From Candidatus Eremiobacterota bacterium (GTDB lineage: Bacteria > Vulcanimicrobiota > Vulcanimicrobiia > Vulcanimicrobiales > Vulcanimicrobiaceae), in contig JAFAKB010000088.1 in assembly GCA_019235885.1 (NCBI GenBank), positions 1 through 64,000 on the forward strand: a DNA stretch of 64,000 nucleotides, read 5' to 3'. Each line of letters begins with the position of its first letter. Position 1 is the stretch's first letter. The notes below the pieces were generated by a model. It ran no database searches, was not told the DNA's origin, and was given only the letters and a program-made list of their open reading frames with translations. A program made the translations under genes and the position numbers. Positions 27,842 to 36,135 of the stretch are shown here, piece by piece.

Positions 27842-28426
27842 TCAACGAGCGCGCCGATTCAATGCACGCTTCAGCTCGTTGAGGAAGTGGTCGCGGCGGC
27901 TGCGATCGTACACCGGCGCCTCGCGCAGTTCCCGTTCCGTCCATGCCTCGATGGCCGGCAGGTCAATCCTTGCGGATTGCGCAGCGGCGACGTCAAGCGC
28001 GACACGCAGCGTTCGTTGGTCGCCCCAGGCCCAGTAGTGCATGAAGCGGTCGCGAACCACGTCCGTCGGCGTGTACACGTGCAGGAGCAAGTCGCCTCGA
28101 TGCTCCGTCGCGTAGGCGGTGACCGTCTCCGAGCCGATCGACGGTGGGCCGGTCGGAAACTCCACGGTGTAGAGCACGTCCGGATGGCGATAGAGACGTT
28201 CCGGCGCGCGAAGATAGCCGAGCGGCCGAAGCGCCTCGTCGACGGTCTTCGCACGCGCTCCGAAACGGAGGATGAAATCGAGGTCGCGCGACTCGTATGC
28301 TTCGGGCGCGTAGAACGTCGCAGCGCTTCCGCCGCACAGAACGGCGGGTTCGTCCGCGCGTTCCAGCGCCGTGCACACCGCGAACGCGACGTCGGTCAGC
28401 GTCGAGGTCGCATCGAGCGGCATCAT
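27842..28426 (-). CDS. Nucleotidyltransferase-fold protein, possible toxin-like partner
   Basis: 194 residues from ATG 28426. The nucleotidyltransferase core is AVLCGGSAATFYAPEAYESRDLDFIL: GGS at residues 32-34 and DLD at 48-50, the expected metal-binding pair. It overlaps the winged-helix gene by four bases (ATGA). Such HTH/NTase pairs resemble AbiEi/AbiEii and MNT-type toxin-antitoxin modules. The sequence does not show which member would be toxic, and the similarity is to the pattern only. Confidence 0.65.
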   Translation of the reverse strand: MMPLDATSTLTDVAFAVCTALERADEPAVLCGGSAATFYAPEAYESRDLDFILRFGARAKTVDEALRPLGYLRAPERLYRHPDVLYTVEFPTGPPSIGSETVTAYATEHRGDLLLHVYTPTDVVRDRFMHYWAWGDQRTLRVALDVAAAQSARIDLPAIEAWTERELREAPVYDRSRRDHFLNELKRALNRRAR

Positions 28427-28764
28427 AGTTCTTTTCCGGCCCGGCGCGGGCGCTGGCGCAATCGCTGGGCGGCTGCGACGATCTCCGGGTCGCTCTGTCC
28501 CATTCGGCTGAGAAGCTCGCGCAGCGGCGCGTAGTGCTGATAGGTGCGATTGAGCTCAAAGATACGCGTGCGTCCCATCAACCGCGAGGCAAGCACGCCG
28601 TCTCGCTCCAGATCGTTGGCCGTCCGCTGAACCACGCTAAGGTCCTCGCCGAGCACGACGGCGAGCTCGCGCGGATAGGACCGCTCGAGGAGGCCGAGCA
28701 GCTTGAGGACACGTTCCCGAGCGCGTGAGCCGAACAGGCCCTTTGACTGCACTGGCACGTTCAC
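28423..28764 (-). CDS. Winged-helix DNA-binding protein, probable partner regulator
   Basis: 113 residues from GTG 28764. The pattern ARERVLKLLGLLERSYPRELAVVLGEDLSVVQRTANDLERDGVLASRLMGRTRIFELN is a winged helix-turn-helix of MarR/ArsR type. A near-perfect palindrome abuts the start codon (28765-28786) and is probably its own operator. The nucleotidyltransferase gene follows with a 4-base overlap, giving a regulated two-gene module. Confidence 0.68.
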   Translation of the reverse strand: MNVPVQSKGLFGSRARERVLKLLGLLERSYPRELAVVLGEDLSVVQRTANDLERDGVLASRLMGRTRIFELNRTYQHYAPLRELLSRMGQSDPEIVAAAQRLRQRPRRAGKEL

Positions 28765-28786: not shown

Positions 28787-28888
28787 ATGACAAATAGCCG
28801 ACGTCATACGACCGCGTCCTTTGCAGGTCGTGCGCGGGCGCCGCTTCTGCATGCTGGCGCAGATTGGCAATGTCGGCCGGAACGGATA

Positions 28889-28904
28889 TCGAACACGCGT
28901 TCGA
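28889..28904 (+). promoter_or_regulatory. LexA (SOS) box upstream of dnaE2
   Basis: TCGAACACGCGTTCGA is a perfect 16-base palindrome that fits the CGAACRNRYGTTCG Gram-positive LexA consensus. It lies 17 bases before the ATG at 28922, close to the 15-base distance from the imuA box to its ATG. Here I see no good -35 at the matching distance; GTATGG follows the box where TAGCAT follows at imuA. Confidence 0.85.
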
Positions 28905-28921
28905 GTATGGTCATCGTCCCG

Positions 28922-31900
28922 ATGCCCGATTCCGCCGGTTCCGCCGAGTACGCCGAGCTGCACTGCTGGTCGAACTTCAGCTTCCTCGAAGGGGCCTCGC
29001 ACCCGGAGGACCTGGTGGCGGCCGGGCTGCAGCTCGGGCTGCGCGGGATCGCCCTGACCGACCGGGACGGGCTCTACGGGGCGGTCCGGTTCGCCAAGGC
29101 GGCGGTGCCCGCGCCGCACTTCGCCGCCCTGTGCGGGGCCGAGCTGACGCTGGAGTCCGCCGAGTCGCAGCCGCTCAAGCCCAGCCGGCCGGCCCGGCCG
29201 GCCAAGGAAGTCCCGACCGACACCCCGCGCCTGGTATTGATCGCCGCCGACAAAACCGGCTACGGCAACCTCGCCAACCTAATCTCGATCGCCCAGCTCC
29301 GCGGCCGCAAGCGCGACGCCCGGCTGCGCCTCGACGACCTCGACGGCCGCACCGACGGGCTGATCGCGCTCTCCGGCGGGCGCAACGGCTTGGTCGAGAA
29401 GGCGCTGCTGCGGCGCGACGGCGCCGTCGCGGTCGCGCTCGGCGCCCGGCTGCGCGACCTCTTCCCCGGGCGCTTTTATCTCGAGCTGCAGCATCATCTG
29501 CGGCCGGAGGACCCGGCGCTGATCCGCGCGCTGGTGCGGCTCGCGATGCAGCTCGACGTGCCGTACGTCGCGACCAACGGTGTCGCGTACGCCTCGCGCG
29601 ACGACGGCAAGCTGTGCGACGTGCTGACCTGCGTGAAGTACGGCACGCCGCTGCAGAACGCGGGGACGCTGCTGCGCCCCAACCACGAGCACGACCTGAA
29701 ATCGCCGGCGCGCATGGCGCGGCTGTTCGCCGAGTTTCCGCTCGCGCTGCGCAACACGCTCGCGATCGTCGAGCGCTGCCCGTTCCGGCTCGAGCGGCTG
29801 CACGGTGAGTTTCCGCTCTACCCGATCCCCGAGAACGAAGCCTCGCCGCAGTCGTATCTGCGCACGCTGGTCTACGAAGGCGCGCGCACGCGCTTCGCGC
29901 AGCCGCTCGAAGCGAAAGTCGAACGGCAGCTCGAGTACGAGCTCGGAATCATCGCGCGCATGGACCTCGCCGGCTACTTCCTGGTCGTGTGGGACATCGC
30001 GAACGCCGCCGCGCGGCTCGACGTGCTCGCGCAAGGCCGCGGCTCGGCGGCGAACTCGGCGGTCTGCTACGCGCTGGGGATCACCGCGGTCGACCCGATA
30101 AAAGCGGGGCTGCTGTTCGAGCGCTTCTTGAGCGAAGAGCGCGGCGAGGTTCCCGACATCGACATCGACTTCGCGCACCAAGACCGCGAAAAAGTCATCC
30201 AGTACGTGTACGAGCGCTACGGCCGCGAGCACGCGGCGATGGCCGCCGAAGTGATCACCTATCGCACGCGCTCGGCGATTCGCGACGTCGGCAAGGCGCT
30301 GGGGCTCACCCTCGGGCAAGTCGACCAGATCGTGCGCGAGTACGACGCGCGCGAGTCGCTCGCCGGCGCGGTCGGCGCGCCGCACGCCGAGGAGAAACCG
30401 CTCCCGCCCTCGATCGCGAAACGCCGCGACCTCGACGCGGGCTCGAACGTGCTGCACTCGCGCGCGGACGATCTTCCCGCCTCGGGCGGGATCCGCGCGC
30501 TCACGCCCGGCTTTCACGACGCCGACTTCGGCGCCGATCCCGACGCGCAGATTAGGGGTCCGGTCGGCGGCGCGCTCGGCGCGTTGCTGCTGAAGATCTG
30601 CCGGCGGATCGACGGCTTTCCGCGCCACATGGGGATTCACAGCGGCGGGATGGTCATCACCCGCTCGCCGCTGGTCGAGGTCGCGCCGGTCGAGTGGGCC
30701 TCGATGCGCGACCGCACGATCGTGCAGTGGGACAAGGACGACCTCGCCGACCTGGGCCTGATCAAGATCGACTTGCTCGGGCTCGGCATGCTCGCGCTGC
30801 TGCGCGACGCGTTCGCGCTGTACCGGCGGCGCTATCCGCAGCGCGTGCCGCTCTCGCTCAACGACATTCCGCCCGACGACCGCGAAACGTACGAGATGCT
30901 GCAGCGCGCCGACTCGATCGGCGTCTTCCAAGTCGAGTCGCGCGCGCAGATGTCGATGCTCCCGCGGCTCAAGCCGGCCTGCTTCTACGACATCGTCATG
31001 CAGGTCGCGATCATTCGCCCCGGCCCGATTCAAGGCGACATGATTCACCCGTTCTTGCGGCGCCGCAACGGACAAGAACCGATCACCTATCCGCATCCGA
31101 AGCTGAAGCCGATCTTGGAACGAACGCTCGGCGTCCCGCTCTTTCAGGAGCAGGGGATGCGGATGGCGATGGAAGCGGCCGGGTTTTCGGCCGGCGAGGC
31201 CGATCGCTTGAGGCGAGCGATGGGGCACAAGCGCTCGCGGGAGCGGATGGCCGAGCTTTATCCACGGCTTGTGGAAGGAATGGTGCATAACGGCATCCCG
31301 CGCGAGGCCGCCGACAAGCTCTACCACATGCTGGAAGGGTTCGCCGACTACGGCTTCCCGGAGTCGCACGCGGCCTCGTTCGCCCTGCTGGCCTACGCCT
31401 CGGCGTACGTGAAATGCCACGAGCCCGCGATCTTCTGCGCGGCGATCCTCAACGTGCAGCCGATGGGATTCTACTCGACGGAAGTGCTCGTCAACGACGC
31501 GCGCCGGCACGGCGTCGTCGTCAAGCCGATCGTCGTCAACGAGAGCGAGTGGTGGAGCTTCGTCGACCAGGACGGCGCGCTGCGGCTCGGCTTTCATCTG
31601 GTGCGCGGAATGGGCGAGGTGCAGCGCGACCGGCTCGAGCGTACGCTGGCGTACGGAGAAGACCGCAGCGCACCGCACGAGTTTTCGGACTTGGTCGACT
31701 TCGCGCGGCGCACCGGGCTGGAGCGCGACGCGCTGGAGAACCTTGCCGCGGCCGGCGCGTTCGCGCCCTGGCATCCGACCCGGCGCGAAGCGATGTGGGC
31801 GCTGCGCGGCCTGGACGAGCGCGAAGCGCGCGGCGAGCTCGGCCGCGCGATGGAGATCGAGAACGAGCCGCCGGCCGCGCTGCGCGCGCTCACGCCGGCC

Positions 31901-32308
31901 GAGCAGACGACGCTCGACATCGCCGCGACCGGCGTGAGCGACGTCCAGCCGATCGCGCACCTGCGCCCGCTGCTCGACGCGCAGAACGTCCTCGCCGCCG
32001 GCCGCCTGCCGTCGATGCCGAAGAACCTCGTCTGCAAGGTGGGCGGCCTGGTCATCACGCGCCAGCGCCCCGGCACCGCGAAAGGCTTCGTCTTCCTGAC
32101 GCTCGAGGACGAGACGGGCTTGGTGAACGTGATCGTCCGCCCCGACGTCTACGAGCGCAACCGCCGCACGATCCGCGGCTCGCACTGCCTGATCGTCGAA
32201 GGCGTTTTGCAGAAAGAACAAGGCTGCATCGACCTGATCATGAAGCGCTGCTGGGAGCTCGACGAACAAGGCGCCGCCGCAAAAGTCCGCGCGCGGAACT
32301 TTCACTAA
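28922..32308 (+). CDS. dnaE2: DnaE2, error-prone DNA polymerase III alpha-type subunit
   Basis: 1128 residues. N-terminal PHP domain (YAELHCWSNFSFLEGASHPE), a finger/palm region with the metal-binding motif PDIDIDFAHQDREKV, and IGVFQVESRAQMSMLPRLKP, then a tail OB domain KVGGLVITRQRPGTAKGFVFLTLEDETGLVN. This is a C-family polymerase of the DnaE2 (ImuC) type, induced by DNA damage and working with ImuA/ImuB. ATG 28922 is preferred over ATG 28907 because the latter would lie at or before the predicted transcription start next to the LexA box. The gene is separated from imuAB by 10 kb. Confidence 0.93.
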   Translation: MPDSAGSAEYAELHCWSNFSFLEGASHPEDLVAAGLQLGLRGIALTDRDGLYGAVRFAKAAVPAPHFAALCGAELTLESAESQPLKPSRPARPAKEVPTDTPRLVLIAADKTGYGNLANLISIAQLRGRKRDARLRLDDLDGRTDGLIALSGGRNGLVEKALLRRDGAVAVALGARLRDLFPGRFYLELQHHLRPEDPALIRALVRLAMQLDVPYVATNGVAYASRDDGKLCDVLTCVKYGTPLQNAGTLLRPNHEHDLKSPARMARLFAEFPLALRNTLAIVERCPFRLERLHGEFPLYPIPENEASPQSYLRTLVYEGARTRFAQPLEAKVERQLEYELGIIARMDLAGYFLVVWDIANAAARLDVLAQGRGSAANSAVCYALGITAVDPIKAGLLFERFLSEERGEVPDIDIDFAHQDREKVIQYVYERYGREHAAMAAEVITYRTRSAIRDVGKALGLTLGQVDQIVREYDARESLAGAVGAPHAEEKPLPPSIAKRRDLDAGSNVLHSRADDLPASGGIRALTPGFHDADFGADPDAQIRGPVGGALGALLLKICRRIDGFPRHMGIHSGGMVITRSPLVEVAPVEWASMRDRTIVQWDKDDLADLGLIKIDLLGLGMLALLRDAFALYRRRYPQRVPLSLNDIPPDDRETYEMLQRADSIGVFQVESRAQMSMLPRLKPACFYDIVMQVAIIRPGPIQGDMIHPFLRRRNGQEPITYPHPKLKPILERTLGVPLFQEQGMRMAMEAAGFSAGEADRLRRAMGHKRSRERMAELYPRLVEGMVHNGIPREAADKLYHMLEGFADYGFPESHAASFALLAYASAYVKCHEPAIFCAAILNVQPMGFYSTEVLVNDARRHGVVVKPIVVNESEWWSFVDQDGALRLGFHLVRGMGEVQRDRLERTLAYGEDRSAPHEFSDLVDFARRTGLERDALENLAAAGAFAPWHPTRREAMWALRGLDEREARGELGRAMEIENEPPAALRALTPAEQTTLDIAATGVSDVQPIAHLRPLLDAQNVLAAGRLPSMPKNLVCKVGGLVITRQRPGTAKGFVFLTLEDETGLVNVIVRPDVYERNRRTIRGSHCLIVEGVLQKEQGCIDLIMKRCWELDEQGAAAKVRARNFH

Positions 32309-32330: not shown

Positions 32331-32359
32331 TTGACAACAGCGCTTTTTCGTGCTTTAGT
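32331..32359 (+). promoter_or_regulatory. Promoter of the diiron/TetR/fusion operon
   Basis: TTGACA at 32331-32336 and TTTAGT at 32354-32359, 17-base spacer; 4 of 6 matches at the -10. The -10 element is the first half of the operator palindrome at 32354-32371, so binding would block polymerase directly. The ribosome site GGAGGAGG lies at 32422-32429 before the ATG at 32437. Confidence 0.65.
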
Positions 32360-32371
32360 CAAACGACTAAA
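32354..32371 (+). promoter_or_regulatory. Operator palindrome overlapping the -10, probable TetR site
   Basis: TTTAGTCAAACGACTAAA is a perfect inverted repeat (7-base arms TTTAGTC / GACTAAA with a 4-base AAAC centre). It overlaps the -10 element. The second gene of the operon encodes a TetR-type regulator, the class that usually binds such palindromes in its own promoter. The match to that protein is inference. Confidence 0.7.
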
Positions 32372-32436
32372 CCGAGCGACTACTTCCCACCGCGACGCAC
32401 CCGGGCCGGCTTTCTCGGCCTGGAGGAGGCATAGCC

Positions 32437-33381
32437 ATGCACAGCACCATGGTTCCGGTCGATCGTGCCCGGTTCGAGCGCTGCATCGCTGCATCGAAAC
32501 GGGTTCGCTGGGACATCGATGAAGACGTCATCCGCGGCCGGCGCTTCGACCGCGAGCACAAATACCTGCCCGACGGGCTCTCGCTCGTCGACCGGCTCAC
32601 CTTTCTGTCTCCCGCGGAGCAGCGCTATCTGAGCCAGCTCCAAGGCCGCACCTATGCAAACGTGTTCGGATTGGTCGAGCGCTACATCAGCGACAAGGTG
32701 CTCGAGCTCAGCCGCGACCACTCCTTCTCCGACCAGACCGCGCTCGAAGCGATGGTGCGCTTCACCGACGAAGAGCTCAAGCACCAGGAACTGTTCCGCC
32801 GCATCGAGGCGATGGTCGCGGAGACGATGCCGGCCGGCTATCGGTTCGTGCCCGATCCGAACGACGTCGCGCGCGCCGTTCTCAGCAAGAGCACCTGGGC
32901 GGTGCTGCTCCTCACCCTGGACATCGAGCTCTTCTCGCTCGCGCATTACAAGGAAAGCATCGAGCCGGACGCCGCACTCTCGCCGCTCTTCAAAGACGTC
33001 TTCCTCTATCACTGGAAAGAAGAGAGCCAACACGCGATCATGGACGAGCTGGAGCTGCGGCGGGTCGATGCCGGCATCACGCCGGCGCAGCGCGACGCCG
33101 CGGTCGACGAGTTCATCGAGCTGGTCGCCGCGGTCGACGGCATCCTGCAGGCGCAGTCGGCCGCCGACGCAGGCTACTTTTCGCAGACGTGCGGCCGGGC
33201 GCTGACCGCCGCGGAAGACGAAGCCGTTCGGGCCGGCCTGCTCGACGCGTACCGCTGGCAGTACATCTTCTCCGGGGCGCAGCTGCCGCAGTTCGGAAAG
33301 GCCCTCTCGAGCTTGATCGACGGCGCCCAAGGCGCGCGCATCCAAGCCGCGCTCGCGTCGCTCGGAGGAAACGCGGCGTGA
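32437..33381 (+). CDS. Ferritin-like diiron carboxylate protein (putative oxygenase)
   Basis: 314 residues, nearly all helical. The complete diiron pattern is visible: Glu81 in LVERYI, Glu113-x-x-His116 in DEELKH, Glu164 in LDIELF, Glu196-x-x-His199 in EESQH. That is the arrangement of ferritin-like oxygenases, including AurF-type N-oxygenases and related diiron enzymes, though I cannot assign a subfamily. First gene of an operon with TetR and a hydrolase-glycosyltransferase fusion, suggesting a step in small-molecule modification. The operator overlaps its promoter. Confidence 0.7.
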   Translation: MHSTMVPVDRARFERCIAASKRVRWDIDEDVIRGRRFDREHKYLPDGLSLVDRLTFLSPAEQRYLSQLQGRTYANVFGLVERYISDKVLELSRDHSFSDQTALEAMVRFTDEELKHQELFRRIEAMVAETMPAGYRFVPDPNDVARAVLSKSTWAVLLLTLDIELFSLAHYKESIEPDAALSPLFKDVFLYHWKEESQHAIMDELELRRVDAGITPAQRDAAVDEFIELVAAVDGILQAQSAADAGYFSQTCGRALTAAEDEAVRAGLLDAYRWQYIFSGAQLPQFGKALSSLIDGAQGARIQAALASLGGNAA

Positions 33382-33422
33382 CTGCGCCGAGTAACCGGCA
33401 GCTTTCAGGAGAGCTGCCGTAA
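33378..33422 (+). other. 14-codon mini reading frame coupled to the diiron gene
   Basis: GTG at 33378 overlaps the diiron stop (GTGA) and reads V T A P S N R Q L S G E L P then TAA at 33420-33422. The TAA overlaps the first codon of the TetR frame (GTA at 33419-33421). One missing base here would join this leader to the TetR reading frame, and GTGA coupling is the usual way the next gene in an operon starts. It is either a leader peptide, or the true N-terminus of TetR split by a frameshift. Confidence 0.45.
33397..33418 (+). promoter_or_regulatory. Hairpin with the ribosome-site-like AGGAG in its loop
   Basis: GGCAGCT, loop TTCAGGAG, AGCTGCC: a perfect 7-base stem with an AGGAG in the loop, ending just before the TetR frame starts. 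It is placed to control access to the TetR ribosome site, or is a by-product of the leader sequence. Confidence 0.4.
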
Positions 33423-34042
33423 CGACTCCACCGAAGCGCGAACGGCTCGGAATTTCCGACGCGCGGCACGACACCGAACAGGCGTTCCTCGACGCGGCAG
33501 AACGCCTGCTGATTCAATGCGGCTACGCCGAGATCACGACGCGCAAGCTGGCCGCCGAGGCCGGGGCCAACCATGGTCTGGTGCACTATTATTTCGGCTC
33601 GATGGAGGAGTTGTTCGTGCAGGTCCTCGAGCGGTTCACCGAGCGCATTACCGCGCGGCAGCGCTCGATGTACGGCGTCGAGAAACCGTTCATCGAGAAG
33701 TGGCGCACCGCGATCCGCTACATCGACGAAGACCTTGCTTCCGGCTACCCGAAGGTGTGGTTCGAGCTTGAGGCGATGGCCTGGAACCGGCCCGAATTTC
33801 GCGAGCGCATCGCCCACATTCACGACACCTGGCACGTCGTGCTCGGGGAAGCAATCGATCGAGCGATGGCGGACTACGGCCTCGATCGCCGGCGCTTCCC
33901 CGCCGAAGCGCTCACTACGCTGGTGCGGACCTTCAACCTCGGCGTTCTGCTCGAACGGCTGATCGACGTCGACCGCGGACATGAGTCGATGTTCCGCATG
34001 ATCGACCGCTGGCTGGCGTCGCTCGAGAAGAGGCGCGAATGA
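33419..34042 (+). CDS. TetR/AcrR-family regulator with no canonical start codon
   Basis: About 207 residues. The N-terminal helix-turn-helix is complete (DAAERLLIQCGYAEITTRKLAAEAGANHGLVHYYFGSMEELF), but no ATG, GTG or TTG occurs in frame between the upstream stop at 33392 and GTG 33581, which is inside the recognition region. So a normal start is missing: translation could begin at a rare codon (GTA 33419, or ATT/CTG downstream), or a one-base deletion has separated the gene from the GTG at 33378. The ligand-binding half includes WFELEAMAWNRPEFRERIAHIHDTWHVV. Its stop overlaps the ATG of the next gene. Confidence 0.75.
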   Translation, partial: VTTPPKRERLGISDARHDTEQAFLDAAERLLIQCGYAEITTRKLAAEAGANHGLVHYYFGSMEELFVQVLERFTERITARQRSMYGVEKPFIEKWRTAIRYIDEDLASGYPKVWFELEAMAWNRPEFRERIAHIHDTWHVVLGEAIDRAMADYGLDRRRFPAEALTTLVRTFNLGVLLERLIDVDRGHESMFRMIDRWLASLEKRRE

Positions 34043-36135
34043 GAGCCCGCCTACCCGATCGGTCGGGATATGTGACGCGTGACGGCACGCGGCTGTACTA
34101 CGAGCTCTTCGGCGCCGGCGAACGGACCGTCGTGTTTCTTCCGACTTGGTCGATCATCCACTCGCGGCACTGGAAAGCGCAAATCCCGTACTTCGCTCGG
34201 CACTTCCGGGTGCTGACCTTCGACGGCCGCGGAAACGGGCTCTCCGATCGGCCCGCCGAGCCGCGCGCCTACGACGACGAGGAATTCGCCCTCGACGCGC
34301 TCGCCGTCATGGACGCCAACGAGATCGAGCACGCCGCGATCGTGGCCCTCTCGGCCGGATCCCGCTGGGCTCTCATCCTCGCGGCGCGCTATCCCGAACG
34401 CATCGCAGCGGCCGCGTTCATCGGTCCGAACGCACCGCTCGGCGCTCCCATCGCCGAGCGCGCTGCGGCAATGCTCGACTTCGACGTTTTGCGCGAGCGG
34501 TACCAGGGCTGGCAGAAGTACAACCGCAACTACTGGCGGCTCGATCAGCGCGACTTCCTCGAGTTCTTCTTCTCGCAAGCCATTTCGGAACCTCACTCGA
34601 CCAAGCAGATCGAAGACTGCGTCGGCTGGGGAATGGAGACGACGCCGGAAACGCTCATCGCGACGCAGGCGGAGCGCACGATGAGCGAAGACGAGGCGCT
34701 CGATCTGGCCGCCGCGGTTCGTTGTCCGGTGCTCGTCGTGAACGGCGACGACGACCGGATCGTCGGGTTCGCGCGCGCGCAGGGCCTTGCCCGCGCGACC
34801 GGTGGGAAGCTGCTGACGCTCGTGGGATCGGGACATTTGCCGCACGCCCGCGATCCGGTGGCCGTCAACCTGGCCTTGCGAGCGTTCATCGATCGACCGA
34901 TCGGAGCACGTACGTGGCGACGCGGGCGCGACCGGCGGAAACGCGCGCTCTTCATCTCCTCGCCGATCGGGCTGGGGCACGCGCAACGCGACGTAGCGAT
35001 CGCGCGGGAGCTTCGCAAGCTGCATCCCGATCTCGAGATCGACTGGCTGGCGCAGCATCCCGTTACCAGAGTGCTCGAAGCGAGCGGCGAGCGCATCCAT
35101 CCGGCCAGTGCGCTCCTCGCCAACGAGTCGGCGCACATCGAGGACGAATCGGCCGAGCACGACCTGCACTGCTTTCAGGCGCTGCGCCGCATGGACGAGA
35201 TCCTGATCGCGAACTTCATGCTTTTCCACGACGTGGTCTCGGAGGAGCACTACGACCTCTGGATCGGCGACGAAGCGTGGGAGCTCGATTACTATCTGCA
35301 CGAGAACCCGGAGCTGAAGCGCACACCGTACGCCTGGCTTACCGACTTCGTCGGCTACCTGCCGATGCCGGAAGGCGGCCGACGTGAAGCCTTCCTGACA
35401 GCGGACTACAACGCCGAGATGATCGAGCACGTCGAGCGCTATCGCTACGTGCGTGACCGCGCGATCTTCGTGGGCAACCCGGAGGACGTCGTGCCGGAGA
35501 CGTTCGGCGCAGGTCTACCGGCGATTCGCGACTGGACCGAGAGCCATTTCCAGTTCTCCGGATACGTCACCGGGTTCGAACCGGTCGAGGACGCCGACCG
35601 CGCCGCGCTCCGGGCGCGGTTCGGATATCGCGACGACGAGCAGGTCTGCATCGTCACCGTCGGCGGCTCGGGCGTCGGCGCGCCGCTGCTGCGCCGCATC
35701 ATCGAGGCGTATCCGCACGCCAAAGCGCGTCTCCCGGCGCTGCGCATGATCGTCGTCGCGGGCCCGCGCATCGATCCCCGCACGCTGCTCAGCGCTGCAG
35801 CCGTCGAAATACATTCCTTCGTTCCGCACCTTTACCAACGGCTGGCAGCCTGCGACATCGCGATCGTCCAAGGCGGACTGACGACGACGATGGAGCTCAC
35901 CGCACATCGTCGCCCGTTTCTTTACTTCCCGCTTCACAATCACTTCGAGCAGAATTTCCACGTGCGCTATCGCCTCGAGCGCTACGGCGCCGGCCGCTGC
36001 ATGCGGTACGACGAATGCGGCCCCGAGCAGATCGCCGAGGCGCTCGTCGACGAGCTCGGCCGAACTCCCGCCTACCGGCCCGTCGAGTCCGACGGCGCGG
36101 CGAAGGCCGCGGCCCTCATCGCAGCGCTGGTGTAG
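34039..36135 (+). CDS. Alpha/beta-hydrolase fused to a GT-B glycosyltransferase
   Basis: 698 residues starting at ATG 34039 (ATGA overlap with TetR). Residues 1-290 are an alpha/beta hydrolase: HFRVLTFDGRGNGLSDRP, nucleophile elbow VALSAGS (Ser105), acid in VVNGDDDRIV and His in GSGHLPHARDP. Residues about 305-698 are a GT-B transferase with ISSPIGLGHAQRDVAIARELRKL and the UGT/MurG-like C-terminus VQGGLTTTMELTAHRRPFLYFPL. One chain with both activities is unusual. With the diiron enzyme it suggests oxidation, hydrolysis and glycosylation of a secondary metabolite or toxic compound. Which substrate is unknown. Confidence 0.8.
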   Translation: MRARLPDRSGYVTRDGTRLYYELFGAGERTVVFLPTWSIIHSRHWKAQIPYFARHFRVLTFDGRGNGLSDRPAEPRAYDDEEFALDALAVMDANEIEHAAIVALSAGSRWALILAARYPERIAAAAFIGPNAPLGAPIAERAAAMLDFDVLRERYQGWQKYNRNYWRLDQRDFLEFFFSQAISEPHSTKQIEDCVGWGMETTPETLIATQAERTMSEDEALDLAAAVRCPVLVVNGDDDRIVGFARAQGLARATGGKLLTLVGSGHLPHARDPVAVNLALRAFIDRPIGARTWRRGRDRRKRALFISSPIGLGHAQRDVAIARELRKLHPDLEIDWLAQHPVTRVLEASGERIHPASALLANESAHIEDESAEHDLHCFQALRRMDEILIANFMLFHDVVSEEHYDLWIGDEAWELDYYLHENPELKRTPYAWLTDFVGYLPMPEGGRREAFLTADYNAEMIEHVERYRYVRDRAIFVGNPEDVVPETFGAGLPAIRDWTESHFQFSGYVTGFEPVEDADRAALRARFGYRDDEQVCIVTVGGSGVGAPLLRRIIEAYPHAKARLPALRMIVVAGPRIDPRTLLSAAAVEIHSFVPHLYQRLAACDIAIVQGGLTTTMELTAHRRPFLYFPLHNHFEQNFHVRYRLERYGAGRCMRYDECGPEQIAEALVDELGRTPAYRPVESDGAAKAAALIAALV

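Follow-up and report, generated by a model that had tools for sequence, protein, structure and literature searches.

The window analysed here, a 64,000-nt stretch (contig 88, JAFAKB010000088.1) of the 4.5-Mb genome of a soil bacterium, Candidatus Eremiobacterota bacterium, contains at nt 32,331–36,135 three co-directional genes encoding an AurF-like diiron protein, a TetR regulator, and a 698-aa chain joining an alpha/beta-hydrolase (ABH) to a glycosyltransferase (GT). On balance, the locus is probably a TetR-autoregulated, small-molecule-inducible modification cassette that has an exchangeable passenger gene and serves detoxification or signal inactivation. The cassette would be a TetR-inducible enzyme operon, which is a known type, with a widespread and apparently uncharacterised bifunctional core. 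The promoter/operator and gene architecture, the catalytic residues, the coupling of tetR to the fusion gene, the exchange of passengers, and the patchy distribution of the diiron gene emerged from sequence comparison.

A -35-like TTGACA box (nt 32,331–32,336, plus strand) is separated by 17 bp from TTTAGT in the left arm of a putative TetR operator, TTTAGTC-AAAC-GACTAAA (nt 32,354–32,371), lying over the probable -10 region. This TTGACA/TTTAGT pair was not listed by the promoter scan because the scan requires an A as the second base of its second hexamer. The initial annotation had described a perfect palindrome over the promoter; the overlap and the 7 + 7 bp arms (nt 32,354–32,360 and 32,365–32,371) were indeed as described, the arms being perfect, while the 4-bp centre AAAC is asymmetric. 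With up to one mismatch, TTAGTCN4GACTAA occurred once in the whole host genome; the chance expectation for the palindrome site was 0.2 per window at up to two mismatches. The operator consensus, CTTAGTCAnnTGACTAAG, was observed at the head of 36 tetR-fusion operons from several phyla, usually behind cTTGACA, and in all 12 genomes of the host's phylum that carry this tetR. Positions C7, G12, and C14 were invariant across the 36 sites, and 33 of the 36 loci had TTGAC no more than 45 nt upstream of the operator, versus a background of 2.2%. At up to three mismatches, 41 operator sites were found in 440 kb versus none in one mononucleotide shuffle, and in several loci another site followed after a further 13 bp. 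The operator was found neither at fusion loci without this tetR nor where the TetR was less than 40% identical (L044 was listed without tetR in this comparison, but tetR was found there by tblastn). Since the operator heads these 36 operons, is absent where this tetR is missing, and has a single copy in the host genome, the comparison strongly supports tetR autoregulation through nt 32,354–32,371, in agreement with the self-regulation initially proposed. As in TetR-family autoregulated operons in general, a dimer-type palindromic operator overlaps the promoter and the repressor is encoded inside its own operon, but here the operator is conserved across several phyla with one enzyme, whereas the first gene varies by exchange. 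In the literature searched, no described TetR with a matching operator was recognised.

The second gene (nt 33,419–34,042, plus strand; frame open from nt 33,395) was correctly annotated as encoding a TetR protein: PF00440 (TetR_N) matched residues 32–76 of the frame from nt 33,395 (E = 1.1e-13), and 11 other genomes of the phylum encoded TetRs of 54% to 67% identity. From the upstream stop to the helix-turn-helix (HTH) region, this frame has no ATG, GTG, or TTG, and initiation at the GTG at nt 33,581 would remove most of the HTH; thus, either the start is non-standard or a base is wrong. The best candidate was GTA at nt 33,419, 7 nt after AGGAG, and an assembly or base error at this place has to be reckoned with. 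In seven relatives, AUC, AUU, or AUA was located at the matching place, about 7–9 nt after a GGAGG-like Shine-Dalgarno (SD) sequence; three of them (G045, G047, and G048) had no standard start anywhere after the preceding stop, and four (G043, G046, G050, and G051) had one upstream that was less suitably placed. The tetR start was CTG overlapping the preceding stop in G076 and G111, and TTG in G023. Most genomes of the phylum thus had either no standard tetR start before the HTH or a poorly placed one, as noted in the window (nt 33,395–33,581) and in loci L109, L110, L112, L113, L114, and L147–L150. The fusion gene of the same 12 loci, taken as the control, always started with ATG or GTG, so the non-standard tetR start is not a general oddity of these loci; tetR genes of other phyla mostly had ordinary starts. 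For tetR in the host's phylum, initiation apparently takes place at non-standard codons (AUC, AUU, AUA, or CUG). A parallel is offered by ccpN of Staphylococcus aureus, a repressor gene with a conserved AUA start and a strong SD sequence (PMC13009471). Both repressor genes seem to be maintained with a weak non-standard start behind a strong SD sequence, but ccpN belongs to another repressor family and phylum, and the starts described here were read from sequence alone, with GTA in the window rather than AUC, AUU, or AUA.

The third gene (nt 34,039–36,135, plus strand) starts with an ATG overlapping the tetR stop (ATGA), and an ATGA or GTGA overlap was present in 11 of 12 relatives; the two genes are thus likely to be translationally coupled. 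Its product comprises a hydrolase domain (about residues 1–290) and a GT-B domain (about residues 300–698), which the initial annotation had already placed in one chain while allowing for a stop or frameshift at the junction. None was present there; moreover, the protein is a single polypeptide in 80 aligned homologues and the AlphaFold2 (AF2) model was of high quality (predicted local distance difference test [pLDDT] 93.4, predicted template modelling score [pTM] 0.93), by which an annotation error or junction frameshift was ruled out. PF00561 (Abhydrolase_1; 72.6 bits) and PF04101 (Glyco_tran_28_C; 33.2 bits versus a gathering cut-off of 22) both matched above cut-off. The hydrolase half has the ABH fold together with a nucleophile-acid-His triad, Ser105-Asp239-His266, with position 105 being Ser in 69 homologues and Cys in 11, and Asp239 and His266 being conserved in all 80. 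Across these chains, the GT motifs IGLGHAxR, GDEAWE, GGSGVG, QGGLTT, and FEQ were nearly invariant, and identity to the window protein had a median of 53% in the hydrolase half and 71% in the GT half.

In fold comparison, the hydrolase half matched esterases, perhydrolases, and Est816 (Z about 32), with D14-type receptors close behind. It shares fold and triad with Est816 (which degrades acyl-homoserine lactones [AHL]), arylesterases/perhydrolases, the enol-lactonase PcaD, and the macrolide esterases EstT/EstX, but identity was 20% to 26%, the NCBIfam cut-offs were far from reached (macro_16_ester, 57 of 420 bits; EstT, 46 of 450 bits), and in the window the hydrolase is joined to a GT. The GT half matched OleD and CalG1 by structure and UDP-glycosyltransferase, YjiC, and MurG by profile; fold and C-terminal donor-site motifs are shared with these GT-B enzymes, but it is joined to a hydrolase and fell far under the MurG and MGT equivalog cut-offs (27 of 260 bits for MGT). 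One genome scan detected 102 fusion-related stretches, and no paper on a hydrolase-glycosyltransferase fusion was found in the literature searched. Stand-alone hydrolase-domain genes, 43% to 58% identical to the hydrolase half, directly flanked the fusion gene in L044, L058, L109, L067, and L090. On a plasmid of Deinococcus sp. QL22 (L102:8055–10106), a fusion homologue with a tetR and an operator match upstream was annotated as two genes, one for the hydrolase and one for the glycosyltransferase, and is a broken or miscalled copy.

Only tetR and the fusion gene were conserved across loci. The slot between operator and tetR contained DUF1326 plus PpoB2, an Rv2258c-like methyltransferase, a Lumazine_bd_2/NTF2-like protein, SBP56, OsmC, the diiron protein (in the window only), or no gene; the methyltransferase was present in G076, G111, and G023, which belong to the host's own family. 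In two loci, L003 with OsmC and L060 with a methyltransferase, the neighbour was divergent. The passenger state changed at least 14 times on the fusion tree (10 without empty slots), a count that is approximate because many forks were weakly supported and the tree had no bootstrap. SBP56 is a family of copper-dependent methanethiol oxidases (PMC5739008), and PpoB2 is a copper-transferring protein (PMC2855505); no paper on DUF1326/DUF2182 was found in the literature searched. OsmC, metallo-beta-lactamase (MBL)-fold, and MddA-like genes were seen near some loci, the latter two recognised by eye with no family search. A common substrate theme of sulfur/thiol or copper was considered for the passengers and rejected except as a lead, as it leaves the NTF2-like, methyltransferase, and diiron passengers unaccounted for. 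A further large group of fusion loci (L008, L023, L025, L037, L040, L041, L043, L064, and others) had neither tetR nor operator; there, an Rv2258c-like methyltransferase gene preceded the fusion gene, and a divergent gene encoded a large MalT/LuxR-like ATPase regulator.

The passenger of the window (nt 32,437–33,381, plus strand) encodes a 314-aa protein matching PF11583 (AurF) with 22.5 bits (E = 7e-5), under the gathering cut-off of 29.6; 13 of 14 homologues scanned singly matched the same family at E ≤ 0.01 (best, 2.2e-7). These 14 homologues, 28% to 65% identical to the window protein, all retained Glu81, Glu113, His116, Glu164, His192, Glu196, and His199, as well as His170. The first seven residues correspond to a 3-His/4-carboxylate site with HxxxExxH, and their order (Glu, ExxH, Glu, HxxxExxH) is that of AurF, CmlI, AzoC, and DnfA, the ligands being residues 88/123/126/182/209/213/216 in DnfA and 102/137/140/198/225/229/232 in AzoC (PMC9478400, PMC6783550). 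Since order and spacing match this published seven-ligand site, the six residues initially given as the complete set, each of them invariant, were one histidine short, His192 having been overlooked. Unlike these enzymes, the window protein is under the Pfam cut-off, has no PDB relative by sequence, and has other gene neighbourhoods. A profile search of PDB with the family gave nothing significant, the non-appearance of AurF and CmlI being no evidence against kinship, and a structure model was all-helical but too poor to read (pLDDT 42; two sequences only, L134 being added). Judged by its ligand set, the protein is predicted to be an AurF/CmlI-type oxygenase.

The diiron family was found in one of 149 genomes of the host's phylum, namely the host itself, in 7 of 398 Pseudomonadota genomes sampled, and in 10 plasmid or megaplasmid records. 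The nearest homologues (61% to 65% identity) were alpha- and betaproteobacterial and encoded on proteobacterial megaplasmids. No homologue was detected in 14 genomes carrying the fusion, among phage records, or in 396 genomes from the phylum to which L005, a Thermoleophilia record, belongs; this last sample had no positive control. Because its relatives are mainly proteobacterial, the diiron gene was probably acquired horizontally from proteobacteria. The homologues were accompanied not by tetR and the fusion gene but by genes for AraC, OsmC, ABH-GerE proteins, an ABH protein with a regulator-like N-terminus, and a regulator with winged helix-turn-helix and tetratricopeptide repeat regions. 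In the ABH-GerE proteins (L105:4709–5791 and L106:3982–5055), the ABH domain is joined to a LuxR-type GerE domain, and in L132:7222–8826 it follows an N-terminal region that appeared BTAD-like by eye; these proteins are suspected to be hydrolase-type sensors. In L103, L104, L107, and L132 (Novosphingobium, Nostoc, and another proteobacterium among the sources), the diiron homologue directly adjoined an OsmC-family gene, a family that also supplies the passenger in L066 and L071.

From these features we infer repression, ligand class, catalysis, and feedback as follows. The conserved core consists of the cTTGACA promoter overlapped by the 18-bp operator, tetR, and the coupled chain of an esterase/lactonase-like hydrolase and a GT-B domain. 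At rest, a little TetR bound to the operator would block the promoter, as its position and conservation suggest. TetR would be freed by a ligand that, judging from the TetR and hydrolase classes, is probably small and either lipophilic or a lactone/aromatic compound, and passenger, TetR, and fusion protein would then be made together. The fusion protein may hydrolyse and/or glycosylate the ligand or its product, which would end the signal and restore repression. The passenger between operator and tetR would add further chemistry, here that of an acquired AurF/CmlI-type diiron oxygenase.

Several observations weigh against this cassette. L009 and L071 carry a close tetR, yet had no operator match; the passengers share no single obvious chemistry; and the window tetR has no standard start, so the repressor may be weakly made or absent. 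In addition, D14-type receptors scored close to esterases, and ABH domains fused to DNA-binding domains occur near diiron homologues; the hydrolase domain could be receptor-like rather than an enzyme. Taken further, it would be a sensor similar to D14, KAI2, or RsbQ that gates the glycosyltransferase, and the presence of D14 and DAD2 among the top structural matches and of RsbQ among the sequence matches agrees with this, as do the ABH proteins joined to GerE, or placed after a regulator-like N-terminus, beside diiron homologues. Such a role is very unlikely, as esterases scored equally or better and the full triad is kept in all 80 homologues, with Cys replacing Ser in 11. Decay of the window copy, with the tetR start lost, the diiron gene inserted by chance, and the operon constitutive or silent, would explain the lack of an in-frame ATG, GTG, or TTG before the HTH. 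It was given the lowest probability of all, since the tetR frame, HTH, operator, and diiron ligand set are intact, and a standard start is likewise missing in relatives from the phylum, whose strong SD sequence 7–9 nt before AUC, AUU, or AUA suggests weak initiation rather than loss.

Inactivation of a specific signal is unlikely. Here the hydrolase half would open a lactone-type signal (acyl-homoserine lactone or butyrolactone), the GT half would conjugate it, TetR would sense it, and the passenger would be a response gene. Est816 is among the closest structural matches of the hydrolase half, ScbR, an autoregulator-binding TetR, was among the weak NCBIfam matches of the repressor, and unrelated passengers under one switch would suit a general signal. 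However, Est816 ties with arylesterases/perhydrolases within Z 1, so its match is not specific, and the ScbR match reached 33 of 150 bits. A dedicated pathway, biosynthetic or detoxifying, in which diiron oxidation is followed by hydrolysis and glycosylation of the one compound that triggers it, was the working idea of the initial annotation; the comparison does not support it, and it is now considered quite unlikely. In this genome the three genes form one transcription unit under one promoter/operator, with complete active-site signatures in all three, but the diiron gene adjoins the fusion gene nowhere else, the slot of relatives holds unrelated genes or none, and the diiron homologues have other neighbours. 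The idea had been made to depend on a recurring neighbourhood, and the three-gene order did not recur.

The three genes are located downstream of a dnaE-like gene and face a class II aldolase gene. The former (nt 28,787–32,308) encodes a second-type DNA polymerase III alpha subunit of 1173 aa and terminates 22 bp upstream of the TTGACA box; beside it, no imuB-like gene was seen. Two small overlapping genes on the minus strand (nt 27,845–28,764), which by eye, with no family search, resemble genes for a winged-helix protein and a nucleotidyltransferase, are possibly a toxin-antitoxin-like pair.

With the autoregulated cassette as the preferred reading, a one-off three-gene story is replaced by a recurring, testable unit. 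More tentatively, and with somewhat less than an even chance, it may be a cross-phylum response cassette combining a standard promoter-operator, a repressor kept scarce in this phylum by AUC/AUU/AUA/CUG-type starts, a fixed fusion, and horizontally loaded redox, transferase, or metal-handling passengers answering one shared class of chemical signal. The operator consensus can be used to retrieve all passenger genes controlled by this repressor, and the resulting passenger set narrows what is sensed. The diiron gene is a clear example of an AurF-like enzyme brought under an inducible switch that already existed. If confirmed, the non-standard tetR start would be another natural weak start codon that sets the level of a repressor.

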